From Doris montereyensis (taxonomy: Eukaryota > Mollusca > Gastropoda > Nudibranchia > Dorididae), in contig JAXRKP010001510.1 in assembly GCA_037039925.1 (NCBI GenBank), positions 15,001-79,000 of the forward strand: a stretch of DNA of 64,000 nucleotides, read 5' to 3'. A program made the translations under genes and the position numbers. The notes under the pieces were generated by a model that was not told the DNA's origin, ran no database searches, and saw nothing but the letters and a program-made list of their open reading frames with translations. Position 1 is the first letter of the stretch, and the number at the start of each line of letters is the position of its first letter. Positions 45,179 through 63,363 of this stretch are shown one piece after another.

Positions 45179-45219
<41 letters not shown>

Positions 45220-46292: not shown

Positions 46293-46294
<2 letters not shown>

Positions 46295-47193: not shown

Positions 47194-47301
47194 TTGAAGA
47201 GAAGAATTCGGTCTTAAGTGCTGATCCCCTTCGTGCTCAACAATACTTTTATGTAAACAGCATGGCTAAATTATCTTATCGGCGGTCCAAATTAATAAAA
47301 T
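47194..47301 (+). pseudogene. Array unit 1 (one-base deletion)
   Basis: Acceptor gtgacag, donor aaaat|gtaagt. It opens LKRRI as expected, then hits a stop seven codons in. One missing base just after the fifth codon puts the rest, LSADPLRAQQYFYVNSMAK, back in the module frame. With that base the length would be 109, phase 0 to 1. It is the nearest relative of unit 2 (D-x-x-R-A, N-S-M, L-S-x-R-R-S). Dead unit or base-calling error. Confidence 0.65.
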
Positions 47302-47533
47302 GTAAGTAATTCATATAATGACAATGAAGTGAGAGCCACCGTTTTTGTCTCTTATTGCTTCTGTCTGATTGGTAAGAATGCTGCTTGCTGTTTTTCCCTC
47401 CGTCTTTTTTTGTTTTGAGTTTTTTTTATACTTCTTATGGGCATATTGTAGATTTCATGAGAAGAATTTTCTCTTTTTCTTTGTTCCTCAATATCCCCTC
47501 CCAAAAAAAATTCTTATCTTTTATTTGTCCCAG

Positions 47534-47645
47534 TTGTATCTTCGGATTCCAATCCTGGCTTGTGACTCAGTTCGTGCTGAGACCCTGCTGTATGCCAACA
47601 GTATGAGAAAATTGTCACTGCGTCGAAGTAGGCAGAAATTGAATT
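47534..47645 (+). CDS. Array unit 2
   Basis: Acceptor tgtcccag, donor gaatt|gtgagt, 112 bp, phase 0 to 1. Peptide opens LYLRIPILACDSVRAETLLY, then A-N-S-M-R-K-L-S-L-R-R-S-R-Q. It has all module landmarks: R4, P6, D11, R14, a Y-x-N-S site and a basic tail. Confidence 0.8.
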
Positions 47646-47727
47646 GTGAGTTCTTGTTACACCTGCGCCAGTATTTTCTCCCCCTGACCTCTCTAACTCA
47701 AGTAGTGAACTTCCTATTTCACCATAG

Positions 47728-47836
47728 CTCTTATCAAGAACTCCAATCCTGAGGTTCAGTAGGTATCGGGCTGAGCATGCTATGTATATCACTACCATGC
47801 GGCAGATTCAAAGAAAACGCAAGAAGTATGTATTTG
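47728..47836 (+). CDS. Array unit 3
   Basis: Acceptor accatag, donor tttg|gtaagt, 109 bp, phase 0 to 1. Opens LLSRTPILRFSRYRAEHAMY, ends R-Q-I-Q-R-K-R-K-K-Y-V-F. It has T for the usual L/M at position 5, and ITT replaces the N-S site. Confidence 0.8.
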
Positions 47837-47923
47837 GTAAGTAATGCCAGTTTTTTGTCGTTTTTTTTCCTGGACGTGATATGAAGGAAGCTTGCGATTT
47901 AAAAATTGGAATAACTACTTCAG

Positions 47924-48040
47924 ATATTTCGGCGTCTTCCCCTCTTGTTGAAGGCCCAAAAGAAGACGGAGCAGATTTTGTATGAGAATTGTAGTAGAAA
48001 AGTACGTCGCTGGCGACAGCAAACGGCATTGCTGCATCAG
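47924..48040 (+). CDS. Array unit 4 (ends in phase 0)
   Basis: Acceptor acttcag, donor catcag|gtaaat, 117 bp. Opens IFRRLPLLLKAQKKTEQILY, then E-N-C-S-R-K-V-R-R-W-R-Q-Q. The module is complete and open, but this donor leaves phase 0, unlike other units. It would need a different downstream exon or would shift the frame. Confidence 0.7.
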
Positions 48041-48295
48041 GTAAATAAACCTCTATCTTGGCTTGGATTTAAGTGGGATCTCCTCTGTTTCAATCTATTG
48101 TCACCCTCTTCGCTTTCTTCAGCCTCCTTATATGCCCTTTCACTTCCAAGATGTCCCTTTTGTTATGGTATTGGTTCGATGATATAGGGGATTGCACTTT
48201 TTGTGGCTCACTTCTGACATCCATCAAACTTTGGAGGGCACATTTCAGGTGAAGGCTTACTGTTCTATTTATTTCCTTCCTTCATTTTACCTCAG

Positions 48296-48407
48296 CTTTT
48301 TCTCCGAATGCCTGCCCTCCTTTACAACAGCAAAAGAGCTTTAGAGACATTCTATATAAATTCAACACGGAAAATGCAAAAAAGACGCTTGAGAGCTCAT
48401 TTTAAAG
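48296..48407 (+). CDS. Array unit 5
   Basis: Acceptor tacctcag, donor aaag|gtgagt, 112 bp, phase 0 to 1. Opens LFLRMPALLYNSKRALETFY, then I-N-S-T-R-K-M-Q-K-R-R. Close to unit 6 (shared LFLRMP, FYINS). Confidence 0.82.
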
Positions 48408-48627
48408 GTGAGTACCTTAGTTTGACTCATCTTGTATGCTTTTTGTGCAGCGCATGTTAATCTTGAAGAGGTGGCTGGCTGCATGCAATTATGTAGTCTA
48501 TAGAGAGCATACTTGTGACAAAGGCTGTCATCATATTCTTTTCCACTCATATTGTCAATAGCTTTTTGTGTCTGAGACTTTCAAAATTATGTGAACAGAT
48601 GTTTTGTCCGTAGAAATTATTCAGCAG

Positions 48628-48667
48628 TTACTTGTGTCAGGAAACCTCATTACGTTTGCATGCAGAT
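48628..48667 (+). pseudogene. Possible truncated array unit
   Basis: Acceptor ttcagcag and donor agat|gtaagt bound only 40 bp, phase 0 to 1, reading LLVSGNLITFACR. Opening and phases fit a unit, but most of the module is missing. Probably an internal-deletion relic. Confidence 0.3.
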
Positions 48668-48928
48668 GTAAGTTCAGTCTCTCTTGCCGTTTATGTTCTG
48701 TCTGAAATCAGCTGTGGCTCAGTACAGATTGTCCTGATTTGCCATTTCTTCAGGATTTGTTTTACGGAATCTTGCTGCAGTTTTTAGTTATTTAGCCCCT
48801 TGTGTCCTACACTGTTAGGGTCATTTCACTCTCTGTGGCTTTGTGATCAGGAGTGAAGCTTTAAAAAAGAACAAATCTGTCAAGGGTGACTTATGCTCCT
48901 AACATTTTCGTTGCATTCTTTGTGTCAG

Positions 48929-49034
48929 CTCTTCCTGCGAATGCCCACCCTTCGCTTTAACTATCGCAGAGTGATGGAGAATTTCTATATCAACAGCATG
49001 AGAAGAATGTATAGAGATCGGGACAAATCAACGG
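48929..49034 (+). CDS. Array unit 6
   Basis: Acceptor tgtgtcag, donor acgg|gtaaag, 106 bp, phase 0 to 1. Opens LFLRMPTLRFNYRRVMENFY, then I-N-S-M-R-R-M-Y-R-D-R-D-K. Sister of unit 5. Confidence 0.82.
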
Positions 49035-49142
49035 GTAAAGTTGTATTTTTCCCCTTTTTTCTTCCCCTGTTTTTAAAGAAAAACAAAAACTCCAAGAAAA
49101 TGGTCTTGCCTTGTGTATAAGGTTTGTTTCTGTTTATCATAG

Positions 49143-49248
49143 TTGTTTCGACGCCACCCACTTCTTTATTGGCAACCGAAGCGGTGTGAAGAAGTGTTCT
49201 ACGTTAACATGAGAAAGAGAGTGTCTAGGGCCCGCAATAAATTTTTGG
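49143..49248 (+). CDS. Array unit 7
   Basis: Acceptor tatcatag, donor ttgg|gtaaga, 106 bp, phase 0 to 1. Opens LFRRHPLLYWQPKRCEEVFY, then V-N-M-R-K-R-V-S-R-A-R. Shares EVFYVN and SRAR with unit 8. Only 109 bp of intron separate it from unit 6. Confidence 0.82.
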
Positions 49249-49587
49249 GTAAGATAATCTGTGATAAGTATCAATTCTTTCATTCCCCATAACCTTTTTA
49301 TTCTCACTGAATATCTTTTTTAATGTATTAATTTGCTCAGCATTCTAGACACAGATCTCTTAGCAATTATGAAACAAATGAAACAGTTTATGCGGAATTT
49401 CAAATGACTGGCTCTAAATTTGTGTTTAATGCGATGTTTAAAAGTTTCATACATTTATTTTAGATGTATAGCTTTTAAGAGCACAACAAGGATTTCTTTC
49501 TTTGGTTCTTCTATTCGATCTCTTTGTAATGCATTTTATATGCTTCCTTTTACTCCAATAATACCCAATGTTCCTTTGTGTGTATAG

Positions 49588-49693
49588 TTATTAAGGCGCC
49601 TTCCGCAGCTGCATTGTCTGAAAGAACGAACAGGGGAAGTGTTCTATGTGAATGTAATGAAAAAAATATCAAGAGCACGGATAAAAGCACGTG
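49588..49693 (+). CDS. Array unit 8
   Basis: Acceptor tgtatag, donor cgtg|gtaaga, 106 bp, phase 0 to 1. Opens LLRRLPQLHCLKERTGEVFY, then V-N-V-M-K-K-I-S-R-A-R-I-K. Sister of unit 7. Confidence 0.82.
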
Positions 49694-49977
49694 GTAAGAA
49701 TTGGTTGGTAAAGTGTCTTTTGTGAGTTTCCAGACACCCTTGATTTTATTGCCATTTTGTTTGTGCTAAAGACCTGGTCATTGTGTCAAGTATTTTGTTT
49801 GGTAGTGAGCAAGGCTATTGATTCTCCAGACTGATAGCAGCAAGTTTTACCACCTGTATTGTCTTTGTATGGCAGCAAGGGCAATCTGTTTTCTTTATTT
49901 GTTTCTTTTTGTAGTGGTATGCACAGTATCAACATTTTTTTTGTCATGATCACAATTATTGGTTCTTAATTTACTCA

Positions 49978-50058
49978 GCTTTCCCCATCTGTAGGGAATA
50001 AACGACAAAGTTTGAGTGTGAAGTATCAAAAGAAACACCAACACAAGTCAGAAGAAAG
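49978..50058 (+). pseudogene. Possible degenerate array unit
   Basis: Acceptor tttactcag, then L-S-P-S...N-K-R-Q-S-L-S-V-K-Y-Q-K-K-H, with a weak donor (aa|gtcttt). The front half appears deleted and P6 is out of place. Listed as a likely relic only. Confidence 0.3.
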
Positions 50059-50286
50059 TCTTTGGTTAAGGGAATAATATAGTCTTGAACGCTGGGTGCG
50101 TTCTTCAATTCAATCATATGTAGTAGTGATCCAGTAGCACGATTGAAAGTGGCTCATTATTTTTGTACTTCCTCTTTTGCTTTCGCTTTCATGTACTGTT
50201 ACGACCGTTAACTAAGTCTGTACGTCTCCTTTCCCAATTCTTCCTTGCTCTGACACATTTTCTCTCTTCTAAAACTCGCCCTAAAG

Positions 50287-50407
50287 TTGGTGAGAAGAAT
50301 GCCTATTCTCTCTGGAGACGCAGCAAGGGTATCAAACTTGCTGTATAATAACAGTAGGGTCAAGATTCACATGAGATATCGACGTCTAGTCCAGGCCCAG
50401 ATGAAAA
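50287..50407 (+). CDS. Array unit 9
   Basis: Acceptor ccctaaag (A before the AG), donor gaaaa|gtgagt, 121 bp, phase 0 to 1. Opens LVRRMPILSGDAARVSNLLY, then N-N-S-R-V-K-I-H-M-R-Y-R-R. Longer basic tail than most. Confidence 0.8.
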
Positions 50408-50556
50408 GTGAGTAATCTCTTGTGACAAGCTTCTTCTCTTTTTTTTAAATTGCCAAAACTAGCAGGATTGTTGCACCCAGCTCCAATTTCTGGGATAGAT
50501 TTTGAAAACTTTGGTCATCATTCATATTTCCCTCTTGTACCCTTCTACTTATACAG

Positions 50557-50668
50557 TTGTTCTCTCGTCTACCAATTCTGAAACATGACAGGACAAGAGC
50601 CGTTGCTCTGATGTACACAAACTGTCGTAATAAACTGTTCATGAGAAGCCGTAAACATCATTTTCAAG
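50557..50668 (+). CDS. Array unit 10
   Basis: Acceptor cttatacag, donor caag|gtggat (weaker), 112 bp, phase 0 to 1. Opens LFSRLPILKHDRTRAVALMY, then T-N-C-R-N-K-L-F-M-R-S-R-K-H-H. Confidence 0.8.
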
Positions 50669-50909
50669 GTGGATAATTTTGAAATGTTGGGATTTTTTCA
50701 TCTTTCTTGTTTGTATTATGTGTATGTGTGTGTGTGTCCATTTATGATGTTTATTCGAAGGTGTATGTGTGAAAATTTGCTGTTGTAGAATGGGAAAACA
50801 AATTTAAAAAATGAACAAAAATACTTTTTATCATGGCAGTTAAATCTCAAGGGCATGTTGTCACTCTTAATATTGTTACCAAAAAAACCCTTTCTGTTGT
50901 CCCTTCTAG

Positions 50910-51035
50910 TTGTTTGAAATGTGCCCCTGTTGGCTTATCAGCCTGAAAGAGCAGGGTATACTATATACATGAATTCAATGTCTCGGAATCATTACTGGAA
51001 AGCCAAGAAGTCCCTTTGTAAAGCAAGCAGCAAAG
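50910..51035 (+). pseudogene. Array unit 11 (one-base deletion)
   Basis: Acceptor cccttctag, donor caaag|gtattt. It opens L-F-E-M, then one base is missing just before P6. Past that point the module frame reads PLLAYQPERAGYTIYMNSMS, then R-N-H-Y-W-K-A-K-K. As it stands, phase 0 runs into a stop. The usual R4 is also lost, so real decay is likely. Confidence 0.65.
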
Positions 51036-51302
51036 GTATTTTGTAAATGACATACATCATGATTAGTCATATATATATATGTATTGCTCATTGCGCTTAG
51101 ATTTGAATAATCATAGTTTCTTTTACTTCGTGCTCTTGTCAGGTTGAAGTGATGTTGGGTTTTTTTTTTTTAATATCTTATTCTGCCGTATGCCGTGCGT
51201 CTCAGTTTTTGGCAGGGGGCTAATTTTGTTTCTCCACAATGGTCATCTCTTTCTCCAGCATAAAAGAGTTTCTTCACTTTTTGCCTTTTAATGTTCCCAC
51301 AG

Positions 51303-51411
51303 TTATTTCGTCGCATGCCCATTCTTCGCCTAGATTATGATCATATCAGGGAAAAATTGTGTCATAACAGCAAATCCCGTATAGGGATGAAAAGAATGTA
51401 CCAAAGACGCA
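51303..51411 (+). CDS. Array unit 12
   Basis: Acceptor ttcccacag, donor cgca|gtaagt, 109 bp, phase 0 to 1. Opens LFRRMPILRLDYDHIREKLC, then H-N-S-K-S-R-I-G-M-K-R-M-Y-Q-R-R. It is the closest to the consensus and a good query for searches. Confidence 0.85.
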
Positions 51412-51865
51412 GTAAGTAGTGTCTCTGACTGACGTTATTGATAACTCAGGGGCAGTAAGTTGTGTTATTGGCTTGTTTCCCGCATAGGCTAAAGCCTGAT
51501 GTCTACTCCCTAGTAAACCAATTTATCTTGTGCTTGCTTGAAAATCCGTCTTGCTGAGGTAGGCTTAAGAGCGTTCTGATAGTTTTGTACACCAAAGTCA
51601 AATTTATTTTATCATGTGGGATGAACTGTCTCTCAGATTTATTTTGAAAATATACAACTCTTAGCGTGGCATTCTTTATTATATTCCTAGTATTGTTTCA
51701 TCACAGTGCTTATCTTTGGTCATAAATCTTTGAGATCGTCCACATTTCATTTTGGACATATATGTTTAGAGGTATTAAAACTTTCAATTCAGCATCTAGA
51801 ATTCTCTGTGTGCTGTTAAAATTTTTGATTTTTTTTTTACATATTCCCTGAAAATTACACATCAG

Positions 51866-51986
51866 CTGATACATAGAATGCCAATATTGGCATCAGCAGG
51901 AGAAACTTGTCGTCTGTCTTCCATTTTCCTGCACGTTTGTCGATCAAGAATCAATATGAGGCTTCATCGAACCAAGCAGCGATTGT
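51866..51986 (+). CDS. Array unit 13
   Basis: Acceptor cacatcag. The donor t|gtaggt gives 121 bp and phase 1; a competing tag|gtatag 5 bp on would give phase 2. Opens LIHRMPILASAGETCRLSSI, then F-L-H-V-C-R-S-R-I-N-M-R-L-H-R. The phase rule favours the first donor. Confidence 0.75.
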
Positions 51987-52236
51987 GTAGGTATAGTGTA
52001 TTGCTTTGGGGGATTTTCTTGTGTTTGTTTTTTGGTAGCTGGGATCTTTTATCTGTTGCACTCATTTATAGTCTCCATGTTTGTGTGTTAGTTTTTCAGA
52101 CACCGCGCGTTGTCTTCATTAGTTCTTGTTATTGGTTTTAATCATCAAGGACTTGTTTCATACGTGATTGCACATGAACTTTCTGGAGGAAGGGGTGAAT
52201 GTTTGTTAGCCTGGTTGGAAGAGCCTCGCTTCATAT

Positions 52237-52348
52237 CTGCCAACTCTACTGCAAATTGCGAGAGACTCCCGCAGTTTGTGTCTATCTTCCTACCATTACA
52301 GAAACCTCCCTGTTAACGCATATATATTATTTCAAACCTCCATTCACT
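52237..52348 (+). pseudogene. Degenerate array unit, copy a of a tandem pair
   Basis: Starts at the equivalent of position 5, with L-P-T-L-L-Q-I-A-R intact but the first codons and acceptor lost. It then has frame breaks and ends at attcact|gtaaat. It is partly duplicated by the next relic, about 139 bp downstream. Confidence 0.45.
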
Positions 52349-52375
52349 GTAAATGTTCATTAGTCTTGTTAACAG

Positions 52376-52525
52376 CTTGCCAACTCTGCTGCAAAGTGCG
52401 GGATATTCTTGCTGTTTGGGTTTACCATGACAAACATACTGGGTTATCGCATTTAGATATTTATAGCAGGGAATGGATTTCAGGGCCTTTCGGGAATTCA
52501 CGTGATTTTCGGACCTCCGTTTACT
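52376..52525 (+). pseudogene. Degenerate array unit, copy b of a tandem pair
   Basis: Acceptor gttaacag, then out-of-frame L-P-T-L-L-Q-S-A-G, a frame break, and Y-H-D-K...G-L-S-H-L-D, ending at tttact|gtaagt. Clearly related to copy a (ctgccaactctxctgcaaa, cctccxttxactgtaa). Confidence 0.45.
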
Positions 52526-52849
52526 GTAAGTGGAAGTGGGTTTTTAATGTTCCTGTAAGGTTGATATTGTATCCAAGAAGACCAATACTTACCCAAATGA
52601 ATACTTTATTCAAGAGGAAGGATACTGCACCACTCTTCCTAATTCATGTAAATTTTTAATAACTGGCATCGATATAGTTATTATTGAAAAACAAAACTGT
52701 TAGGGTAGTTTGAAATTTGAACCAGCAAAACTTCAGTCTTTTTGTTTGCTAGTCTGCTTGTGACTGGGCAATCCGTTTTCTTTGGTGTCTAAAGAACATG
52801 AATTCGTATCTCCCTCATTTTTGTATAATCTCCCGGGTTTCCTAATCAG

Positions 52850-52900
52850 ATTACCCTCTCAGATGGCTTCGAAGGTTGGCAGCTAAATCTCTTAGAAATA
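52850..52900 (+). pseudogene. Truncated array unit relic
   Basis: Around acceptor accctctcag the sequence reads W-L-R-R-L-A (compare LLRRLP), then A-K-S-L-R-N, and ends at aata|gtgagc. The middle is deleted and the frame is off by one. Confidence 0.4.
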
Positions 52901-53409
52901 GTGAGCTTGCTCTTTTTGTTAACCTCACCTCACATTTTTAGCTTTTTACTTAACTTCAAATTTGGCATTTCATGTAGTTATTCAGTTTTACTTGTTTTGT
53001 TACACTGTGTCCTCTATACTGGTTCACCCTAAGACTGAGTTTTGATGATTTCATTATGTTCTTGTAAGAAGTTAAGATGTATGTCATTTCTAAATTCTTA
53101 CACTCTCCCGCTAATGTCCTTTGCTTTGAGAATTTAAACTTTGATCTGGATTCAAAGAAGAAAATCTGGCTCTGTAGGACTTTTTGTTTGCACTATTATT
53201 TATAAACTTGAAAGAAGGGTATGTTATTGTCCTTTATTTCTATTTCATCTCAAATAGCTAGCTTGCAACCTAATTTAGATTTCATGACGTATGTACAGCA
53301 GTCCTGCACACTCTTCTCCCTTGGCATTATCATGACATGAACCCCGTGTGTCTTTTTTATATCTGATTCCCCCTTTTGGCTTACTGCTTGTGTTCTGTGC
53401 TCTTACCAG

Positions 53410-53518
53410 TTGTTTCATCGTCTTCCTTTCCTTATGAGACAAGAAGGCAGATCAATCAAGTGTTTTTCTAACAACGTCAAAGTCTGGAGACACAGGGCTA
53501 GGCATCGTTTTGAATTGA
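53410..53518 (+). CDS. Array unit 14
   Basis: Acceptor gctcttaccag, donor ttga|gtgagt, 109 bp, phase 0 to 1. Opens LFHRLPFLMRQEGRSIKCFS, then N-N-V-K-V-W-R-H-R-A-R-H-R. Preceded by the largest gap in the array (51987-53409), which holds only relics. Confidence 0.82.
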
Positions 53519-53680
53519 GTGAGTAGGGTCGTATTGCCATAAGGTTCCTGTTTTTCTACATCTTTTTTGTCTGTAGCACAATGGCAGTTGGTGATTTTGT
53601 GTGTGTTTATTTTTGGTTTATTTTAAAGGTTCCCATGTAATATGCAGGGAAGGGTTTGCCTCTCTATTTTTATGTATCAG

Positions 53681-53780
53681 TTGTTCCGGAGAATGCCTCT
53701 TTTGAAATGCTGTCAGTCTTTGGCTTCTGACTATATGTACAATACAAGTCGTTACCGGAGGATTAAGCGCTTGCAGAAAG
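53681..53780 (+). CDS. Array unit 15
   Basis: Acceptor tatgtatcag, donor aaag|gtaagc, 100 bp, phase 0 to 1. Opens LFRRMPLLKCCQSLASDYMY, then N-T-S-R-Y-R-R-I-K-R-L-Q-K. One of the two shortest open units. A G-run follows in the intron (53811-53828). Confidence 0.82.
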
Positions 53781-53946
53781 GTAAGCTACAGTGTCTTGGG
53801 TTGTTTTTTTTGGGGGGGGGGGGGGGGGTTTTCTGTAAGATTACCTGTCAAATGTCATAGTTGGGTATGTTTTGAAGAGTTGGTTTTTGTCAGCTCTCGA
53901 AACTGCGCCATAACGCTTATGAAAGAAATGAATTTGTACTTTGCAG

Positions 53947-54058
53947 CTTTTGCTCCATTTACCTATTCTTCGAGGGGATATTTTGAGACTAACCGAGTAT
54001 ATGTACAGTAGTGCACGGTCAAGGCGGAGTCAGAGATCCTTCCAGCAAAGGCAAAGCT
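53947..54058 (+). CDS. Array unit 16
   Basis: Acceptor actttgcag; the donor aagct|gtaggt gives 112 bp and phase 1. Opens LLLHLPILRGDILRLTEYMY, then S-S-A-R-S-R-R-S-Q-R. H replaces R at position 4. A later tgtag|gttatg would give phase 2. Confidence 0.75.
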
Positions 54059-54252
54059 GTAGGTTATGCAGAATTGTTGTTTTTTTTTTTAATTTGTATT
54101 TTCTCAAATTCTGTTAATGCAGATTATGTTGTAAAACTTTGTCTTTTAGTTTTGTCTTTCATCTCTCTTTTCCTTCTTTTTTTTTTTTTTAACTGAAGGA
54201 TCTTTCGATTTCTTTGCTCTGTTGCTCTTGAAGTCTTAAATTTTGATCACAG

Positions 54253-54364
54253 ATTTTCAAACGCATACCTGTGTTGCAAGGCAGTTCTTCTATGGCCTCT
54301 GAGTATTTTTACCAAACCTGCATGTCTCGTAGATCGTCTAGGTTACACCTTAGCCGTCAAAAGA
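54253..54364 (+). CDS. Array unit 17
   Basis: Acceptor gatcacag, donor aaga|gtaagt, 112 bp, phase 0 to 1. Opens IFKRIPVLQGSSSMASEYFY, then Q-T-C-M-S-R-R-S-S-R-L-H-L-S-R. D11 is replaced by S. Confidence 0.8.
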
Positions 54365-54670
54365 GTAAGTCTCTCCTATTTTGATCTTACACATCATCAT
54401 ATCCCAAGTCTGGTCTTGCACACATTGATTTCTGTCCAGGACTCTTGCTTAGCATTGTTTTATGGCAGAGTAATAGCCACAATGCTCAGACAGGGCTAGA
54501 TTCTTTTTGGAGATGGATTCATCTCTGTGGGAGTTTTTTTAGGAGTTGGGGTGTTATACTTGTCATGTTTTTCTTATTGTGTATTTTTGTTTGTTGCTCC
54601 CCCTCCAACCATGTCTTCTCAGAGACCTTCTCACTATATTTTTTTTGTCCCTCTTCACACATTCCCACAG

Positions 54671-54776
54671 CTTTATTCACGGTTACCAATTTTGCTAGGA
54701 AATAAAGTCAGAACCTCTCACTATTTTCACATCAGTACTTTGTCTCGTCGTGCCAAGCATAATATTCGGACGAACA
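54671..54776 (+). CDS. Array unit 18
   Basis: Acceptor attcccacag, donor aaca|gtgagt, 106 bp, phase 0 to 1. Opens LYSRLPILLGNKVRTSHYFH, then I-S-T-L-S-R-R-A-K-H. Shares L-S/M-S-R-R with unit 17. Confidence 0.82.
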
Positions 54777-55085: not shown

Positions 55086-55197
55086 ATGCTGTCTCGTATC
55101 CCCTGCCTCTGTCATGATGTCCAGCGTTGCTCAGAATATTTGTACCATAATTGTCGAAAGAAATTAGGCATGAGAATTTCTCGTTTAAGAGCACTAG
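55086..55197 (+). CDS. Array unit 19
   Basis: Acceptor ttttggcag, donor ctag|gtgagt, 112 bp, phase 0 to 1. Opens MLSRIPCLCHDVQRCSEYLY, then H-N-C-R-K-K-L-G-M-R-I-S-R-L-R. Cysteine-rich variant. Confidence 0.82.
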
Positions 55198-55373: not shown

Positions 55374-55509
55374 GTCTTTTCACATTGCCACATTCTACGC
55401 CGGGACCCTTTACGAGCATCTTATTATTTCCTCGAAAGATGCAGAGTGAAAATGAGTATGCGAAAATTGAGAGAAAAGGTCAAGATACACCCTTGGGGAG
55501 GTGCTGCAT
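55374..55509 (+). CDS. Array unit 20 (divergent, longest)
   Basis: The acceptor caatcaag is weak and followed by GT. The donor gcat|gtaaga gives 136 bp and phase 1. Opens VFSHCHILRRDPLRASYYFL, then E-R-C-R-V-K-M-S-M-R-K-L-R-E-K plus an unusual IHPWGGAA end. H replaces P6 and R4. A nearer aaag|gtcaag would give phase 0. Possibly decaying. Confidence 0.6.
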
Positions 55510-55612
55510 GTAAGAAGTTGTACACATTTTCACAGCCTTGTCAAAAGAGCTCTTGATTGTATTTTCCTGTTTAGTTGATGCAATTTGTGACATCTTAAAT
55601 TTTGATGTTCAG

Positions 55613-55724
55613 CTGCTGAACCGACTGCCTTTGCTAAATTATTGCTTGAGAGAAACAAAAGCATTATATTTAGAAGTGACTCGTCAGCGTTTAAAGCAGC
55701 GCCGTAAAAGAGGAGTTCATTTAG
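55613..55724 (+). CDS. Array unit 21
   Basis: Acceptor gatgttcag, donor ttag|gtaaga, 112 bp, phase 0 to 1. Opens LLNRLPLLNYCLRETKALYL, then E-V-T-R-Q-R-L-K-Q-R-R-K-R. R is shifted to position 13. Confidence 0.82.
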
Positions 55725-56135
55725 GTAAGAGCGCATGTTATCTTTTGGTCGGAAAATCTTGTTCGTATCATGCGTTGTAAGTATCTTTCGTATCATGTAA
55801 GTATCTGTGGTTGCCTGAGCTTTTTACTCACAATCATCATGTCAGGTGAATTTGCCTTTTTCTTTTGGGCGTTGATTTTCTCCCTCTCTGAAAAAAATTC
55901 ATCATATTTCGTCATACTTGAAAGGTTTTTATCATGATAGCCTTGTCAGTATTCCAGATTGTTTCTGCAACATCTTTCGGGTGTCTTTCCAAGCTTGTTC
56001 TCACCTGAAAATGTAATTCTACATAGCTACCTATCTGTGATTCCTCATGGTCTTGAAATCCATGGGAGACTTTAAATTACTTTCTCTCTTTTTTTTTTTT
56101 TTTTTTGTGTGCGTTTTCATGGATCTAATCTTCAG

Positions 56136-56240
56136 CTCTTCTCCCGATCGCCTTGTCTCGCATGGAATGCTGCCCACACTGCATTTCTTTCTCTGATAAT
56201 GCTAAGAAACGCTTGTGGCTTCAAAGATCAAGGACGAGGA
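56136..56240 (+). pseudogene. Array unit 22 (one-base deletion)
   Basis: Acceptor aatcttcag, donor agga|gtaagt, 105 bp. It opens L-F-S-R-S-P-C-L in phase 0, but the module's second half (S-D-N-A-K-K-R-L-W-L-Q-R-S-R-T-R) is in the next frame. One base is missing near 56159. Phase 0 stays open yet encodes a non-module tail and ends in the wrong phase. Confidence 0.65.
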
Positions 56241-56458
56241 GTAAGTTTGAGTTGGGGTTATTTTCTTTAGGGGTGGGGAGGGGGATGTTTTCTTTGCCCC
56301 AGGGACTAAACAGGTTTTATGTGCGTGTGCAAGTTTTGTTTTGTTTATTTGTTGTTTTTTGCCCCCCATACTCCAGGACATGAGTGGTTTTATTCTTTAC
56401 TGTCTTCTTTAGCATAGTCTAGTTAATGGTATGCCTCAAATCTTTCATCATTGTCCAG

Positions 56459-56570
56459 TTATGTATCCGTCTTCCCATCCTGCAACACGATATTAAAAAA
56501 GCCAGCTCCTTGTTCACAAAGACTGTCACTAGAAGGATGTCTTCGAATAGACGCAGATTCTTCCATGAAG
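56459..56570 (+). CDS. Array unit 23
   Basis: Acceptor attgtccag, donor gaag|gtgagc, 112 bp, phase 0 to 1. Opens LCIRLPILQHDIKKASSLFT, then K-T-V-T-R-R-M-S-S-N-R-R-R. Shares S-L-F-x-x-T-V-x-R-R with unit 25. Confidence 0.82.
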
Positions 56571-56670
56571 GTGAGCTGGACGGTAGTACACCGGTCTTCT
56601 GTCTTGTCTCTTTCCTGTCTTTTACTCTGAAGTCTTCAGGTAACATGGCCATTTTCTGACCCCTCTGCAG

Positions 56671-56740
56671 ATGTTTCACCATGTGCTTTCTCTTATTTCA
56701 CCACTAAGTTATCAGTTATGAAGAGGCTGTCGTATTGAGC
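56671..56740 (+). pseudogene. Truncated array unit relic
   Basis: Acceptor cctctgcag, then M-F-H-H-V, an internal deletion, and out-of-frame S-Y-F-T-T-K-L-S-V-M-K-R-L-S-Y before a stop. This resembles the middle of unit 24 (S-Y-L-F-S-A-T-T). No donor. Confidence 0.45.
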
Positions 56741-56784
56741 ATGACAATCATTCAATTTACGACTTACAACAACATACTCTACAG

Positions 56785-56893
56785 TTATTTCGTCGCTTAC
56801 CGTTGTTGAGATGGGATTTGGTCCGGACCTCTTACTTATTTAGTGCCACAACTTCGAAACGTAATTGGGCTGTACGCATTCGGAACAGGAACA
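56785..56893 (+). CDS. Array unit 24
   Basis: Acceptor tctacag, donor aaca|gtaagt, 109 bp, phase 0 to 1. Opens LFRRLPLLRWDLVRTSYLFS, then A-T-T-S-K-R-N-W-A-V-R-I-R-N-R. Strong consensus member. Confidence 0.85.
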
Positions 56894-57229
56894 GTAAGTA
56901 TTTGACATGTGGGGATCAAACTGCATCAAAATGCCCGGTGCCTGTAGGTGAATGGGGCAGGGCTTCCATCCCATGGATGTAATAGGAGTTTGTGTTGTTT
57001 CTTTTCCTTTAGTATTTTAAGATATTTTGGACAGTTGGAGTATCGATCTGGCGCAGTTGGCTACTTTTGCCATTTACTCTGCCATTTGGATCTATCTCAG
57101 CTTTCTTTTTTATCCTCTTTTTAAATGCTTTTGATCACCGCTTTGAACGTAATTCATTATCCCTTGAAAAATGTCTGATCATTGCTTTTGGTGGCCTGGG
57201 TATATTTCAACAATCATTCAATCTTCAGT

Positions 57230-57305
57230 AATCTGTCTTTCCCTTATGGTACAATAGTGGTGTCTATTATTGTTCAAACTCAGTAGAAAGTTGTATGAGA
57301 GGGGT
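57230..57305 (+). pseudogene. Possible degenerate array unit
   Basis: After caatcttcag the text tctgtctttcccttatggta resembles unit 14's start (cgtcttcctttccttatgag), and later sequence reads Y-Y-C-S-N-S-V-E-S-C-M-R. The frame is broken and there is no donor. Confidence 0.3.
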
Positions 57306-57488
57306 AACATTTTGGACACAATTCCAATGTGCTCAGCTGTGGTCTTATTTAAGCCACAAGTCCACCTTTTAATATAAGTATTTACACCATTTCACTGATC
57401 TTAGTTTTCTTTGTTGCTTATGTTTTTGGGATTTGTAACAGATTGATTTTCGAATAAATGATCAGAATTGATTGTTCTGCCATCTCAG

Positions 57489-57597
57489 TTACTACATCAT
57501 CTGCCTCTTCTAAGAATGGATTTGAAACGAGTGCAGTCTCTATTTATGCTTACTGTAAGGGTTCGAAGGTCATCACAGAGGAGGCGTTTTCAATTTG
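57489..57597 (+). CDS. Array unit 25
   Basis: Acceptor gccatctcag, donor tttg|gtgagt, 109 bp, phase 0 to 1. Opens LLHHLPLLRMDLKRVQSLFM, then L-T-V-R-V-R-R-S-S-Q-R-R-R. H replaces R at position 4. Confidence 0.82.
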
Positions 57598-58042
57598 GTG
57601 AGTGGGCTAGAATTGGCACTGCAGCTTCTTACATGCTATCGTTGACTATCCCTAACACCACCCCACAGTCATCACACTTGAATGGTCAGAAATTTTCTTT
57701 ACTGCTGCTTCTTTTTTCTTTTCACTCAAGCGCACGGTACTAGTTATCAAACCTCTTGGCACCAAAATTTTAAGACTCAGCTGCTAGGCTGACCCTGTCC
57801 AAAACGCCACCACTCTCTCTATCACACTCACTTATGAAAATTTTATCTTGATATCACACCAGCATAGTCTTGTTGCAAGTCATTTCATGCTCAGTGTTGG
57901 TGTCCTTAGTGAAAACGAAGTGGCTACCCCACAATAGCTACATTGGTGGGTTTTTTCCGTATGACAAATTTTGGATTAGAGGAGGGGTGGGATATTCTAA
58001 AATTAAAATGAGTGCTAGAATAATCTCTGGTTTATCCAACAG

Positions 58043-58148
58043 TTGATAAATCGACTTCCAGTTATTGCGAGAGATGTGAATAGAGTTTCATCCATATTTG
58101 TTGCTCGAGTTCAGAAAAGGCTTTTTGATCATCGTCACAGATTGAAAG
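58043..58148 (+). CDS. Array unit 26
   Basis: Acceptor atccaacag, donor aaag|gtatga, 106 bp, phase 0 to 1. Opens LINRLPVIARDVNRVSSIFV, then A-R-V-Q-K-R-L-F-D-H-R-H-R. First of the F-x-A-R class that dominates the right half of the array. Confidence 0.82.
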
Positions 58149-58233
58149 GTATGATTACTTTTTGCTTTTCGGGAGGTGAAATGGGAAATTTTGTAAAGAG
58201 CCTGAGCCTGACATTGTCTCATCCTTTCAACAG

Positions 58234-58339
58234 TTGATTAAACGCATGCCATTAATCAGATCTACTTCAAACTGGCTGTATACTTCAGTGCTAGGTGCAG
58301 AGTTTCGCTATCAAAACAGGCAGAGAGTGATTGGCAGAG
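58234..58339 (+). CDS. Array unit 27
   Basis: Acceptor tttcaacag, donor agag|gtgagt, 106 bp, phase 0 to 1. Opens LIKRMPLIRSTSNWLYTSVL, then G-A-E-F-R-Y-Q-N-R-Q-R. Separated from unit 26 by only 85 bp. D11 and R14 are replaced. Confidence 0.8.
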
Positions 58340-58671
58340 GTGAGTTGATTGCCCAAACCTGTGACACATGTCATTACTTTCCAGTTATTTGGATATTCAT
58401 GTACATGTACTTCCTTCCTGTGGCTCTGATGCTATCATAAACATTTTAATTTGGGGAATGGTATGTTCATGGACTGCATATTGTGTGAAAGAATTGAAGA
58501 ATTCCTTTCAATATTTCACTTCTGTTCGCTTTCCTAAAGACCTCAGGTGTAGGAAAATAGTTTTCTTGATGGTTTTAAAAGAGACCAAACTAAAGCTAAA
58601 ACAGGATAAACCTCATCATCCAAAAAATCTCTACACTGTCCTGTAAGCTCTTATATGCATACCCCAAACAG

Positions 58672-58780
58672 CTGCTCTCTCGCATGCCAATGCTACGGTT
58701 AAATGTGGGGCGACTTGAGGGGACGTTCTGTGCTAGAACAGCTGAGATCCGCTACAAGAAGCGACAACAAAGAATTAGAG
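58672..58780 (+). CDS. Array unit 28
   Basis: Acceptor cccaaacag, donor agag|gtgagt, 109 bp, phase 0 to 1. Opens LLSRMPMLRLNVGRLEGTFC, then A-R-T-A-E-I-R-Y-K-K-R-Q-Q-R. Near units 29 and 30 (R-L, F-C, A-x-x-I-R). Confidence 0.84.
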
Positions 58781-59085
58781 GTGAGTGCTAATTTCAAAAG
58801 GTCTCTACACTCTGTCAGAAAGGAACATGTAGGGTTGCTCTGCTTCTTGGTGCAGTCTTTTTATTTGTTGGAATCCCTTTGAATGACTTTTCTTATGAAG
58901 CATATGTGACTATGTCACTACGACTTGTCAGCAGCTACCTCATCACTGTGGTTCTTAGTTGTTTTCTCTATTAGTGGTCAGCAATGGTAATGTTAGCAAT
59001 ATTATGTACTACAAATGGATGTACATTTTGTATTTATGATAATAAGTCCTGATAGATTTGACTGTGGCTTTTGACTTTCATGCAG

Positions 59086-59200
59086 CTTCTGTACCGCTGC
59101 CCTATTCTTCAATTCGATGTCCCTCGTCTGAACTTATATTTTTGCAATCGAGCCAAAGACATACGATTTAAACTTAGGCTCTCCAAGTTTCAAGGCCAAG
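59086..59200 (+). CDS. Array unit 29
   Basis: Acceptor ttcatgcag, donor caag|gtaagc, 115 bp, phase 0 to 1. Opens LLYRCPILQFDVPRLNLYFC, then N-R-A-K-D-I-R-F-K-L-R-L. Sister of unit 30. Confidence 0.84.
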
Positions 59201-59309
59201 GTAAGCCTTCACTGGTCGGTCAAAAAGAGTGTCAGATCTTATGTTTGCAATTCATACAGACATTCCATGAGCCAATTTTATGTAGCTTAAATATTGAATA
59301 TCCTGACAG

Positions 59310-59417
59310 CTCACAAATCGCTGTCCTGTGCTTCAATTGATATACAACGGCTTAAGATGATTTTCTGTCAAAGAACAGCTGATATCAGGTTTAAAGAAAG
59401 AAGAGCTAGAATGCGAG
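59310..59417 (+). pseudogene. Array unit 30 (one-base deletion)
   Basis: Acceptor tcctgacag, donor cgag|gtaagt, 108 bp. Opens L-T-N-R-C-P-V-L-Q, then loses one base where unit 29 has ttcgat (here ttgat). Past that point the module frame gives D-I-Q-R-L-K-M-I-F-C-Q-R-T-A-D-I-R-F-K. Phase 0 meets a stop. All motifs are intact, so a base error is plausible. Confidence 0.65.
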
Positions 59418-59598
59418 GTAAGTTGACTGAAATACGAGTGGTTTCACTGCTTTTTCTTCCTGTACCCTCCTGTGTCTTTCCTATCAAAAATGTGTAATGG
59501 TCTCTGTTTTCACCATTCCCTCTTATGGTCATACTTCCAGTTTTGTCAAGGGTTGCTTGTCGTACTGAGCAAGTTAATGCTTTGTTTCTTTTCATTAG

Positions 59599-59707
59599 TT
59601 GTGTCGAAGAATGCCTATCTTACAATGGTGGACTGATAAAACAAAAACCTTGTTCAGTGCTTGTGTTGCACGATGGAGCTATCAGAGGAGGAATGTGAAA
59701 GTAAAAG
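59599..59707 (+). CDS. Array unit 31
   Basis: Acceptor ttttcattag, donor aaag|gtaggt, 109 bp, phase 0 to 1. Opens LCRRMPILQWWTDKTKTLFS, then A-C-V-A-R-W-S-Y-Q-R-R. Tryptophan-rich. Confidence 0.84.
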
Positions 59708-59866
59708 GTAGGTCAAGCTCAGAATAAGCTTGCTACCTTACCATGAGTCACAAAGGGCTTCAGGATATGAGAGATTTAATTTTCACAATTCTTGTTGTGT
59801 GGCTGCAAGATTGAATCAAATCTTAGAATCCTCTGCTGTATTTCTTTTGCCTTTCATCACCTTCAG

Positions 59867-59972
59867 CTGTTGAGGAGAGTGCCAATTATGGGCTTTGACA
59901 TCCGTCGAGCTTCAGCTTTGTTCAGGTACAATACAACATCTCGAAGGCATGAAGAACGTAAGAGACAAGAAG
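59867..59972 (+). CDS. Array unit 32
   Basis: Acceptor tcaccttcag, donor gaag|gtaaat, 106 bp, phase 0 to 1. Opens LLRRVPIMGFDIRRASALFR, then Y-N-T-T-S-R-R-H-E-E-R-K-R. Confidence 0.84.
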
Positions 59973-60105
59973 GTAAATGACTCAATTCCTTCACTGTGTT
60001 AATCAAGTCTGAAAAAATCAAAAGGTGGCTCTGTTTTTGCTAGATCTAGTTTAGATTGTCATTTTTAATACGTCCACTTTCATTGAGCTAACTTTTTTTC
60101 TACAG

Positions 60106-60223
60106 TTACTTCGACGTGTGCCGATATTGTCCCTATCTTGTGAAAGAACCATTCATATTTTTTGTGCTCGTGTTGCCAAATGGAGATTTCGCTCAAGGGC
60201 TGCCTCAATGGCTCACATTGGAA
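60106..60223 (+). CDS. Array unit 33
   Basis: Acceptor tttctacag, donor ggaa|gtatga, 118 bp, phase 0 to 1. Opens LLRRVPILSLSCERTIHIFC, then A-R-V-A-K-W-R-F-R-S-R. It shares E/Q-R-T-I-H-x-F-C-A-R-V-A-x-W-x-F-R-S and the same donor with unit 34, a clear recent duplicate. Confidence 0.84.
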
Positions 60224-60501
60224 GTATGATTGTCTTTGTGGTTCTACATTGTATGTACACCTTCTTTTTCTTTGTAAAAGTAGTCCGGTCTTTCTCTTTT
60301 CTGAGCTCACATTCTAACTCATTTTTAAAACCTATACTATGTCCCCACCCTAGAGACTTGGATTTTAAGTTTTTTAACAGGCATTTCCTCCAGGTAAGCT
60401 CGGAAAGTCTTAAATCTGGGGGTCATTGCCCTAAACTTGTCACGTCTGACTTTTATAATTGTCACATTCTTTTTAGGTTCTTCCTTTCTGATTGTTCACA
60501 G

Positions 60502-60625
60502 TTGTTTCATCGCCTGCCTTTCTTGCATTGTTACCATCAACGTACCATCCATGTCTTCTGTGCTCGAGTGGCTTTATGGAAATTTCGTTCCAAGTCTGGC
60601 TGTAGCACAAAAGCAGCAGTAGGAA
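60502..60625 (+). CDS. Array unit 34
   Basis: Acceptor gttcacag, donor ggaa|gtatga, 124 bp, phase 0 to 1. Opens LFHRLPFLHCYHQRTIHVFC, then A-R-V-A-L-W-K-F-R-S-K. Sister of unit 33, with a longer tail (GCSTKAAVG). Confidence 0.84.
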
Positions 60626-60764
60626 GTATGACCAGGCTGATAACTGATGTTTTGATAGTGTACTTGATGCTTCATTCTAGCTTTTCTTTCAAATTTCCTT
60701 TGACAAACTTTAATTGAAACAACAAACATAAACCCTCCACCCCTCAACAACTTAAAAAACACAG

Positions 60765-60873
60765 CTCTTTTTAAGGTTGCCCCTATTGACTTGTGACAGA
60801 AAGACTGTCGCAGAGATGTTCTGTGCACGTTCATCCGAAATCCACTACCGCATGCGCAAAAAAAAGGGAAGAG
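60765..60873 (+). CDS. Array unit 35
   Basis: Acceptor aaaaacacag (purine-rich, weak tract), donor agag|gtaacc, 109 bp, phase 0 to 1. Opens LFLRLPLLTCDRKTVAEMFC, then A-R-S-S-E-I-H-Y-R-M-R-K-K-K. Confidence 0.8.
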
Positions 60874-60979
60874 GTAACCATGATTAATCGTATCAACTGA
60901 GCTCATCATGTTACAGGGCTTTTATTTTATAATTTACAAAAATATTGTCATTACGTTATTTTATTTCAATATATCACAG

Positions 60980-61086
60980 CTTTTTGACGCGTCTCCCTCT
61001 CCTTCGATATTGCGTGCCCTATGTTGTAGATGTGTTCAGAGCTCGAGTTAGTTGGAGAAATTCATACCAAAGACGTAGAAAAGAAG
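60980..61086 (+). pseudogene. Array unit 36 (extra T in a T-run)
   Basis: Acceptor atatcacag, donor gaag|gtgggt, 107 bp. With five Ts instead of four after the first C, phase 0 is lost and stops. The neighbouring frame reads L-T-R-L-P-L-L-R-Y-C-V-P-Y-V-V, then D-V-F-R-A-R-V-S-W-R-N-S-Y-Q-R-R-R. A homopolymer error is a strong alternative to real decay. Confidence 0.65.
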
Positions 61087-61229
61087 GTGGGTTACCCTTG
61101 TCATTCTATCTATGCTCGTCCTTCGCCACCGCCACACCCTTATTTCTGTCCCTTTGTTCTTTTTGTGTCAGTTATATGTTTTGCCTCAAATGTTTGTGGA
61201 CAGCTGGCGGGGGGTTTTTGCAGGTTATA

Positions 61230-61330
61230 CTTCTTTCCTTTCTTTCACATATCTTGTCTTGCTAATTCCTCTTAATTCACCCTGAGGTAACTGCATATGG
61301 TGGTAGGGGAAATTTGATGAAACGAAGTCT
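61230..61330 (+). repeat. Short interspersed repeat, TTAATTCACCCTGAG family
   Basis: tttctttcacatatcttgtc, ttaattcaccctgaggtaac, tgcatatggtggtaggggaa: a copy between array units 36 and 37. Confidence 0.65.
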
Positions 61331-61543
61331 CAAATGTGCATCCCTCTGTGTTTGTTCCTCTTCTCTGGTGTACCTTTGTTTTGTCAGTGTTTTTTCCTCT
61401 TTCAGCATTACTGTGCCTCTGATTGTATTTTTAGTGCTGAGCATTTAATTTAAAACGCCTGTCTCAGTCACCACAGTGCAGATCAAAACGGTTTCTTGTC
61501 TTTATTGGCTGAACTGTTGCCACGAGTGTCATACTTCTTGCAG

Positions 61544-61655
61544 CTGCTGTCTCGCCTGCCAATTTTACGTCTTGATATCCCTCGTGTAAGTTATTATTGT
61601 GTAAAAACTGCCCATGACAGGAAAGCGAACGAAGTACGCAGGACCAGACATAAAG
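61544..61655 (+). CDS. Array unit 37
   Basis: Acceptor cttcttgcag, donor aaag|gtaggc, 112 bp, phase 0 to 1. Opens LLSRLPILRLDIPRVSYYCV, then K-T-A-H-D-R-K-A-N-E-V-R-R. Shares V-K-T-A-x-D-R-K with unit 40. Confidence 0.85.
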
Positions 61656-61725
61656 GTAGGCTGTCACTAGTCTAGCTGAGGTTTTTGAAAGGCTTTTTGT
61701 GTTGTTTTTCCCCTCCTGCACACAG

Positions 61726-61834
61726 CTAATACAGCGCATACCCTTACTTCAATTCAACATTACCAAGTGCAGCCACATATTTAGGGCCAGGGTAGCAGAG
61801 AGGATTCATTACTATAAGCATCGGACTAAACCAG
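61726..61834 (+). CDS. Array unit 38
   Basis: Acceptor tgcacacag, donor ccag|gtacct, 109 bp, phase 0 to 1. Opens LIQRIPLLQFNITKCSHIFR, then A-R-V-A-E-R-I-H-Y-Y-K-H-R. Confidence 0.84.
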
Positions 61835-62088
61835 GTACCTGTATGTGTAGTATCACTGTTGCAGTTTTTGTTTTCAAAACTGAGGACGCTATTACTAAAC
61901 AGTCATCTTGCTTTGTCTCTTCCCACTAAGATGAAGGCGTTTATCGGGTCTCTGTCTGGTATAAACATTCATAAACATTTGGCTCTTTTCGTATTTGTGC
62001 ACATTCTAGCGCCAAGTTAGGGGTGTCCCAGTGTCTTTTTTGTTTTACAAATTTTGATGCTTCTTGTTTTGTTTTTGTATGATGACAG

Positions 62089-62202
62089 TTAGTTAGTCGA
62101 CAACCTCTACTGAAATTCGACTTTATCCACCTATGTGAATGTTTGGCAAAAAAATGCCAAAGATAGAAAGAATGCTCGGGAAATTCCGGCGGTGGGAAGG
62201 GG
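62089..62202 (+). pseudogene. Array unit 39 (homopolymer frameshifts)
   Basis: Acceptor gatgacag, donor agggg|gtaagt, 114 bp. Opens LVSRQPLLKFDFIHLCECLA, then a run of seven As (six expected) shifts the frame. The continuation is K-N-A-K-D-R-K-N-A-R-E, like units 37 and 40. The final G-run also appears one base long. Phase 0 meets a stop. Confidence 0.6.
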
Positions 62203-62313
62203 GTAAGTCAGAATGTTCTTCAATGTTTTAGATGTCTAAATGCTTCAAGAACCCAGCTCACTGTTTATACACACTTCCTTATAATGGCGACCTTTGTTAC
62301 CTTCACTGGACAG

Positions 62314-62410
62314 CTTGTGTCACGCCTTCCGCTATTAAAGCATCATATTGACACTGCTGGCCATTATCTGGTTAAAACTGCTCAAGATAGAAAGAGTAGG
62401 AAAGACTTAG
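62314..62410 (+). CDS. Array unit 40
   Basis: Acceptor cactggacag. The donor ttag|gtgcag gives 97 bp and phase 1; a stronger gagag|gtgaga 10 bp on would give phase 2. Opens LVSRLPLLKHHIDTAGHYLV, then K-T-A-Q-D-R-K-S-R-K-D-L. R14 is replaced. Donor choice is uncertain. Confidence 0.7.
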
Positions 62411-62901
62411 GTGCAGAGAGGTGAGATTTGTTTTTTCTTTCTCCTCCAGTTTTAGGCTTATTGAAAAGTATCAAATTTTTGTTTATGTGAGAATGAGGGT
62501 TTCCTTCCTGTTTTCTCATTTCTACTTTTAAAAAAAATATATATATTGTTAAGAGTGGTGGAGAAAGGCAACGTTCCATTTACTTTGAAGTAGTGCACCT
62601 CTATTCACTCCTTTTCTTCCCTTTCTCAGATGCACGGGTTAAATCTTGTTGAGTTTCTCTGCCTCTGCTGCTTGGCATATTTTGCTTTAGAAGGGAACTC
62701 TAGTTGGTTGTTCGTTTGTGTTTTGGGGATCTTTGTCTTGTTTTTCTTTCGGGGTGGGGTAAGGCTTTGATTTAGTGAAGATGGGTGTTTCCAGATTTTT
62801 TGTTCTGTCTTGGACTGACATTAATCAAAGCATGTCACCATGACTTCATCTGGCTCTATTCTTGTATCTTTGCTGAGCATTACATTTACTTCATCATACA
62901 G

Positions 62902-63022
62902 CTGTTGCGCAGACATCCAATTCTTTCAAATGACTTGGTTCGTACTAGCTTGATTTTTACGGAGCGGAGTCTTCGAAGGTTGTCTTATGAAAGGACAAAA
63001 ACTAAGGATTACAATTCTCGAG
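62902..63022 (+). CDS. Array unit 41
   Basis: Acceptor catcatacag, donor cgag|gtacgt, 121 bp, phase 0 to 1. Opens LLRRHPILSNDLVRTSLIFT, then E-R-S-L-R-R-L-S-Y-E-R-T-K. H at position 5, as in unit 7. Confidence 0.84.
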
Positions 63023-63251
63023 GTACGTGCTTGCCGTCTTGTTAAGAGGTATCTGCACAGTTGTTCCAGAGGGGGTTTGACCACGGTCAGCAGCAATGCT
63101 CACAACAACAAAGGTCTTAAAGAGGCAATGTTTTTATAAATGCAATGTGAACTGAAGAAGAAAACACCATGGCAGCAGGCCTTTGTCAACGAGAGTTGTC
63201 GCTCAATTTTGTTTGATAGGTGGAGATTTTATTCAAATTCTTTCATGTCAG

Positions 63252-63363
63252 TTGTTACGCAGGATTCCACTTCTCGGGACCAGCCTGGCTAAAACTTCAT
63301 ACGTCTTCTCGATCAATACCATGTCTCGTTTGGCAATGCAGCGCCGCAAGAAGCAGGAGCCAG
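63252..63363 (+). CDS. Array unit 42 (last in window)
   Basis: Acceptor catgtcag, donor ccag|gtgtga, 112 bp, phase 0 to 1. Opens LLRRIPLLGTSLAKTSYVFS, then I-N-T-M-S-R-L-A-M-Q-R-R-K-K. It returns to the N-x-M/S type of the left half. No later unit appears in the remaining 640 bp, so this may be the true end of the array. Confidence 0.84.

Follow-up and report, generated by a model that had tools for sequence, protein, structure and literature searches.

The 64,000-nucleotide stretch studied here (the window, in whose numbering all positions are given) corresponds to bases 15001-79000 of a 117,796-base contig, C570, in the 513-Mb assembly of the nudibranch Doris montereyensis. It contains a gene that combines a series of constant exons with a tandem array of 42 homologous, variable exon-like units at 47194-63363, the subject of this work. 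The same gene holds all the constant exons and the array, with two constant 3' exons (G and H) located just past the end of the window. A second contig, C3321, covers the same region from around 2.8 kb before exon E onward, with 97-98% identity and many small insertions and deletions. This contig is error-rich, and we take it, judging by its sequence, to be the other haplotype of the array region.

The constant exons were located by tblastn with homologues, except for exon C, whose position rests on its sequence and phase and on the homologues. Exon A (23774-24529, plus strand), with boundaries set by sequence and phase, carries the ATG start codon, a conserved N-terminal domain, a KRPRS basic stretch and an IVKEE motif. 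Exon C (25367-25489, plus strand) ends in GADPS, which is likely the variable junction of the gene family. Exon E (39437-39510, plus strand; LTRAQQEELEMYYRKGTDQHLTFL) and exon F (39852-39932, plus strand; RNMREAHAMYPFTGKRDKELFDKALAE), after which the units are spliced, were recovered with 96% identity across 25 residues and 93% across 30 residues, respectively. Beyond the window lie exon G (65163-65309) and exon H, which runs from 66088 to a stop codon ending at 66409. A preliminary description of this DNA had expected a common downstream exon, and exon G fills that role, although at 65163 it starts 1.2 kb past the window end. The frame is broken once in exon A, near 24180, and once in exon H, near its start, where C3321 has an extra base; both breaks look like assembly errors. 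Once the break in exon A is allowed for, phases run from 0 to 1 in A, 1 to 1 in C, 1 to 0 in E, 0 to 0 in F and 0 to 1 in a unit, and exon G starts in phase 1.

An open reading frame at 29737-30102 (plus strand) was first taken as a further exon of this gene, and as such it was included in the homologue-search query. It was dropped because the homologous isoforms read all lack it and exon C joins exon E in phase without it. This frame contains DEIGRYALLHGAAAASRHYSDVLGKRIP, a helix-turn-helix-like stretch; it has an acceptor-like site upstream, seems to be broken near 30086 and gave no Pfam match. The intron between exons C and E also harbors a fragment of a LINE-like (long interspersed nuclear element) reverse transcriptase at 36195-36488 on the minus strand (Pfam RVT_1, E 1.8e-7), and the intron that separates exon F from unit 1 contains a tandem repeat with ten copies of a 49-base unit, at 42215-42693.

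All the units of the array are on the plus strand. Their coordinates were obtained from a phase-aware and a phase-blind donor scan. Units 3 and 6 to 10 are located at 47728-47836, 48929-49034, 49143-49248, 49588-49693, 50287-50407 and 50557-50668; units 12, 14 and 15 at 51303-51411, 53410-53518 and 53681-53780; units 17 to 19 at 54253-54364, 54671-54776 and 55086-55197; unit 20, with a divergent start, at 55374-55509; unit 21 at 55613-55724; units 23 to 29 at 56459-56570, 56785-56893, 57489-57597, 58043-58148, 58234-58339, 58672-58780 and 59086-59200; units 31, 32 and 35 at 59599-59707, 59867-59972 and 60765-60873; and units 37, 38 and 41 at 61544-61655, 61726-61834 and 62902-63022. The positions of the remaining units are given below, along with their particular features.

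Three sequence criteria for clusters of mutually exclusive exons are listed in PMC3228551, namely similar length, conserved splice sites and frame, and homology. With respect to length, the units span 100-136 nucleotides (the weak-donor units 13 and 33 being assigned the nearer GT), and 30 of the 42 fall between 106 and 112. With respect to splice sites and frame, an AG directly precedes every one of the 42 units, and when the best-scoring GT 80-150 nucleotides downstream of the acceptor was chosen regardless of phase, the length was of the form 3n+1 in 33 of 42 cases (14 expected at random), leaving a remainder of 0 in six units and of 2 in three. These nine exceptions comprise six units that are out of frame (1, 11, 22, 30, 36 and 39) and units 4, 40 and 13. 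Unit 4 (47924-48040) has 117 nucleotides in the window and 118 in C3321, and unit 40 (62314-62420) has 107 and 106, so that both are in phase in the second contig; unit 13 (51866-51986) has weak donors throughout, with an in-phase GT at 51986 by which its end was set. The second scan, which demanded 3n+1 by design, was used for the coordinates and for the three units restored in C3321. Counting unit 13 with its in-phase GT, 34 of the 42 units are intact in the window, and with units 4, 40 and 30 (59310-59417; frame broken here) intact in C3321, at least 37 have an intact copy in one of the two contigs. Unit 22 (56136-56240), out of frame in the window, is open in C3321 with several gaps.

Homology among the units was evaluated with sequence profiles. 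The best scores of a seed profile were 49 bits in the array, 5.8 outside it on the plus strand and 7.4 on the whole minus strand; since this profile had been built from the array itself, a split-half profile was used as a fair test. In it, 40 of the 42 units scored at least 10 bits against the profile of the opposite half, with shuffled units reaching at most 7.5; seven of the 42 had breaks, across which they were read manually. The tandem array of homologous units presented in the preliminary description is therefore real.

The phases place a strong constraint on how the units can be combined. When a single unit is included, the frame remains open through exon G in 34 of 34 intact units. Joining F directly to G, with all units skipped, leads to a stop nine codons past the junction, and every one of the 561 ordered pairs of units in series is cut short by a stop no later than within exon G; in 520 pairs the stop comes before the second unit is complete. 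Because zero or two units bring an early stop, only single inclusion yields the full protein. The unit also supplies the first base of the codon split at its 3' junction, which accounts for the S or G that precedes QFKSPG in the homologues.

A search with the hand-joined product retrieved 286 proteins, and the best 120 of these were listed. Nine among these 120 carry a unit, and in all nine cases there is exactly one. They correspond to Physella acuta, Aplysia californica, Biomphalaria glabrata, Lymnaea stagnalis, two Bradybaena similaris loci, and the proteins P0008, P0010 and P0053; every one with a stated organism is from a gastropod. The unit lies between both constant flanks in seven (Physella, Aplysia, Biomphalaria, Lymnaea, Bradybaena twice and one transcript contig). 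Seven homologues matched the unit profile at E 2e-4 or better, while P0008 (E 0.22) and P0010 (E 0.38) are weak matches that were counted as unit-bearing by position, after KALAE. A tenth candidate, P0109 (E 0.84), was taken as a chance match. P0008, P0010 and P0053 come from contigs no longer than 2,047 bases that probably derive from spliced RNA; this applies in particular to P0010, a full 545-residue product on a 2,047-base contig that is too short for introns and thus likely represents a spliced RNA with one unit. When the variable region or the distant homologue P0053 was used as the query, nothing was listed beyond the proteins already found.

Other homologues appear to carry no unit. 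In P0009 (isoform X43 of Biomphalaria), exon F seems to be spliced directly to G and the frame is lost, as predicted for skipping; P0012, apparently also without a unit, likewise loses the frame past exon F. Translation seems to continue into the intron that follows F in P0007 and P0013, and into the one that follows E in P0016. The clusters represented by P0001, P0006, P0002, P0003 and P0005 contain 49, 43, 33, 27 and 9 sequences, respectively, each listed with one contig, and these sizes fit the existence of many isoforms per locus. The loci LOC131934887 (Physella), LOC101860137 (Aplysia) and LOC106053932 (Biomphalaria) correspond to the orthologous gene, with the same constant exons and module and one unit per representative protein, except for the skipped X43. 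The proposal that each product contains one unit, made in the preliminary description, was borne out by every unit-bearing homologue read. Its view of the gene as unrecognised stands in part: a literature search by locus names gave no paper naming these gastropod loci, but the orthologues were already annotated, as uncharacterized loci with many automated isoform models.

Some of the units could be paired with units of other species. Unit 5 (48296-48407) is identical at 31 of 37 positions to the unit of Biomphalaria isoform X11, and its nearest relative in its own array at 18 of 35; support for this orthology is 98/86. Unit 13 pairs with the unit of Physella isoform X11 and unit 36 (60980-61086) with a Bradybaena unit, both with support 99/89, and a pairing of unit 2 (47534-47645) with a Bradybaena unit is moderately supported; these are the three starred cross-species pairs and the moderate one in a tree of 51 units. 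By score, a clear best unit was found for five more homologue units (unit 13 for P0001, 2 for P0003, 36 for P0005, 28 for P0008 and 42 for P0053), and none for P0002, P0004 and P0010. P0008 and P0053 do not pair directly with a single unit in the tree. Adjacent units are more alike than random pairs (mean identity 0.367 vs 0.326, with none of 5000 random orders reaching as high a value), as expected if the array grew by tandem duplication. The presence of cross-species orthologues suggests that part of the array is likely older than the split of these snails.

The module encoded by the units, of about 36 residues, has nearly fixed positions L1, R4, P6 and L8 (38-40 of 42 units). R or K occupies positions 14, 26, 31 and 33 in 74-78% of the units, and position 19 is mostly F, with variable positions interspersed. 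The mean net charge per unit is +7, ranging from +3 to +9. AlphaFold models exons E and F of P0001 as three helices, the third of which continues into the unit (helix 348-364, spanning the F/unit junction at 360/361), and the unit ends in a long helix (372-399); ten-residue blocks over 351-400 have an average predicted local distance difference test (pLDDT) score of 72-87. This continuity across the junction suggests that the unit likely completes a helical domain begun by exons E and F. The module matched no Pfam family above the cut-off, and no Pfam domain, including immunoglobulin and BTB, was found in homologues P0001-P0006 and P0010. The segment formed by E, F and the unit may bear some resemblance to the BEN domain. 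BEN was not among the matches of 14 sequences in a profile search with this segment, in which HMMER filters drop weak matches, and a BEN search of the genome, which reads exon by exon, gave two weak matches, both elsewhere. The basic KRPR stretches, the IVKEE and IKxE motifs, which we take to be lysine-acid motifs of the SUMO type, and the zinc-finger relatives described below suggest that the protein is probably intracellular and nuclear.

These relatives reveal the family to which the array gene belongs. A C2H2 pattern is present in 81 of the 120 listed homologues, and in 71 of these 81 a D[PS]S motif, defined by a loose pattern, is found upstream. In several homologues read, this motif marks the end of the constant half, like the spot before LTRAQQ in the array gene. 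The N-terminal domain was found at six places in the assembly, the array gene included. On C3321, 3' of the array gene (positions in the numbering of that contig), there is an N-terminal exon at 80270-80485 (minus strand), and minus-strand C2H2 frames form four groups at 39.0-53.1 kb (38971-53091), of which three have a frame that encodes five fingers; on the plus strand, an N-terminal exon at 106106 is accompanied by C2H2 frames at 110746 and 111552 (stretch 106106-111881). These loci (L012, L019, L020, L023, L025 and L026) likely represent two genes of the same family adjoining the array gene, with alternative-looking zinc-finger exons. That genes of the same family, these two probably among them, join the shared N-terminal half to C2H2 zinc fingers is new here. 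P0053 has an N-terminal half resembling Babylonia zinc-finger isoforms and carries one unit, which is matched best by unit 42 (63252-63363). Since the N-terminal half is common to C2H2 genes, the array likely diversifies one cassette of a transcription factor-like family, and the family as a whole likely swaps C-terminal cassettes, one of which became an exon array.

Taken together, the sequence data lead us to propose, with a probability of roughly 0.9, that all 42 units are interchangeable forms of one internal exon and that exactly one of them is retained in each mature mRNA. The occurrence of one unit in each of the nine unit-bearing proteins indicates that the gene likely makes dozens of proteins. 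The product would exist in some forty forms differing only in one basic helical segment, skipped and doubled transcripts would be removed by nonsense-mediated decay, and the helical domain formed by exons E, F and the unit may bind nucleic acids or proteins, the unit determining which partners are recognized.

Several observations weigh against this proposal. P0008 and P0053 lack the constant 3' flank, and one representative protein was read per cluster, further isoforms being deduced from counts and from isoform numbers in names. Units 1 (47194-47301), 11 (50910-51035), 36 and 39 (62089-62202) are intact in neither contig; the frame of unit 1 is broken in both, which corrects the preliminary description, where each unit is said to encode a version of the module. 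Donors are weak in a few units: 13, 16 (53947-54058), 33 (60106-60223, with alternative donors at 60223 or 60250, both in phase) and 34 (60502-60625). Most forks of the tree of 51 units are open and the bootstrap had not settled. The comparison of alleles gave no sign of constraint, with a mismatch of 1.1% in the units and 0.88% outside them, and 33 nonsynonymous changes over 2911 sites against 11 synonymous changes over 854; given that C3321 is full of sequencing errors, this comparison says little either way. As for the protein, the mean pLDDT of the whole P0001 model is 44.6 and blocks 311-350, corresponding to exons E and F, are at 56-63, and neither a structure nor a Pfam family backs a role in nucleic acid binding.

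The alternative that fares best is that the choice is unregulated: splicing would join units randomly or serially, decay would spare only the in-frame mRNAs with one unit, and the one-unit pattern would reflect filtering and not selection of an exon. The early stop in every doubled or skipped form and the existence of a skipped isoform model in Biomphalaria (P0009) agree with this idea, as does the fact that no docking or selector signal stood out. Exact words of the flanking introns with a complement in the 41 inter-unit introns were shared no more than in shuffles, and enriched short words in the introns did not rise above the shuffle maximum. When the duplex energy was calculated for 329 windows paired with the final 220 bases of every trimmed intron, a stretch near 45693 came top, at -2.0 kcal/mol relative to shuffled introns, with one 30-base window reaching -2.7; in a repeat with other shuffles and 903 windows, the same stretch was third, at -1.7, level with several others. 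This stretch, 45685-45718 (GAGCCCTTTTGATTTTGGTGCTGTGG), in the intron before unit 1, pairs with inter-unit introns slightly better than shuffles do and was not clear of background on repeat, so it is regarded as a lead only. On the other hand, unregulated splicing among 42 candidate exons would presumably waste most transcripts, and crowding cannot help single inclusion because only 4 of the 41 inter-unit introns are shorter than 100 nucleotides. We therefore consider an unregulated choice unlikely.

Much less probable still is that the array is a relic, with one or a few units in use and the rest being decaying duplicates or pseudo-exons. Six units are indeed out of frame in the window, including the four that are intact in neither contig; against this, an intact copy in the right phase exists for the great majority (at least 37 of 42), some have orthologues kept across species, and clusters from related loci comprise as many as 49 sequences for a single listed contig. 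Joining of the units in series into a repeat protein, suggested by their tandem homology and single orientation, has a negligible probability, given that units with phases 0 to 1 cannot follow one another in frame (all 561 pairs run into an early stop) and nine of nine unit-bearing homologues carry one unit. We give equally little credit to the units being copies of a transposon or dispersed repeat, an origin raised in the preliminary description as the finding that would speak against it: a LINE-like fragment does lie within the window, but the units share one strand, with conserved splice sites and frame, and a search of the 513-Mb assembly with unit 42 gave six matches at E <= 1, all in the array or its haplotype copy, in a search that sees close units only (it recovers 4 of the 42 units of its own array in C570), so that distant copies elsewhere are possible.

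Elsewhere in the window, the start of a carboxylesterase-family gene is found at 581-880 on the minus strand (Pfam E 4.9e-7), and an open frame with a BED zinc finger at 13095-13499 on the plus strand (Pfam E 1.6e-5).

Mutual exclusion of the Dscam type, as put forward in the preliminary description, is supported by the three sequence criteria and by the finding of one unit per product. The Dscam1 exon 6 cluster of arthropods likewise consists of tens of tandem homologous internal exons in one phase between constant exons; 48 are supposed in D. melanogaster and 39/40 to 53 predicted across Drosophila species, according to the same paper (PMC3228551), compared with 42 here. The array gene differs from Dscam1, an immunoglobulin cell-surface receptor, in that no immunoglobulin or other Pfam domain was found in P0001-P0006 and P0010, one cluster is seen instead of several, the unit has around 36 residues, no convincing docking site was detected and the protein looks intracellular and nuclear. 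A different parallel is provided by Drosophila lola and mod(mdg4), in which a constant N-terminal half with a BTB domain is joined to many alternative C-terminal parts encoded by alternative terminal exons. Gastropod relatives of the array gene resemble them in carrying C2H2 zinc fingers after what seems to be the same junction, whereas the array gene itself has internal units instead of terminal 3' exons, a shared C-terminus and an N-terminal domain without a Pfam match, and no BTB match was found in the seven homologues analyzed.

Very large clusters of mutually exclusive exons have been described mainly in Dscam, a cell-surface receptor of arthropods (PMC3228551). The array described here would be a cluster close in size to the largest one of Dscam, in another phylum, in a protein where no surface-receptor features were seen and with some exons orthologous among gastropods. 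We tentatively suggest that gastropods may choose among around 42 exons to adjust the recognition helix of a protein that binds DNA or chromatin, that this one gene could in this way provide cells with dozens of target specificities, and that it may have arisen from one cassette of a zinc-finger-swapping family. The array gene would thus offer a compact system in which to ask how a cell picks one exon out of forty and whether splicing reprograms the target choice of a regulator, questions that can be tested since the laboratory gastropods Aplysia and Biomphalaria have the gene.

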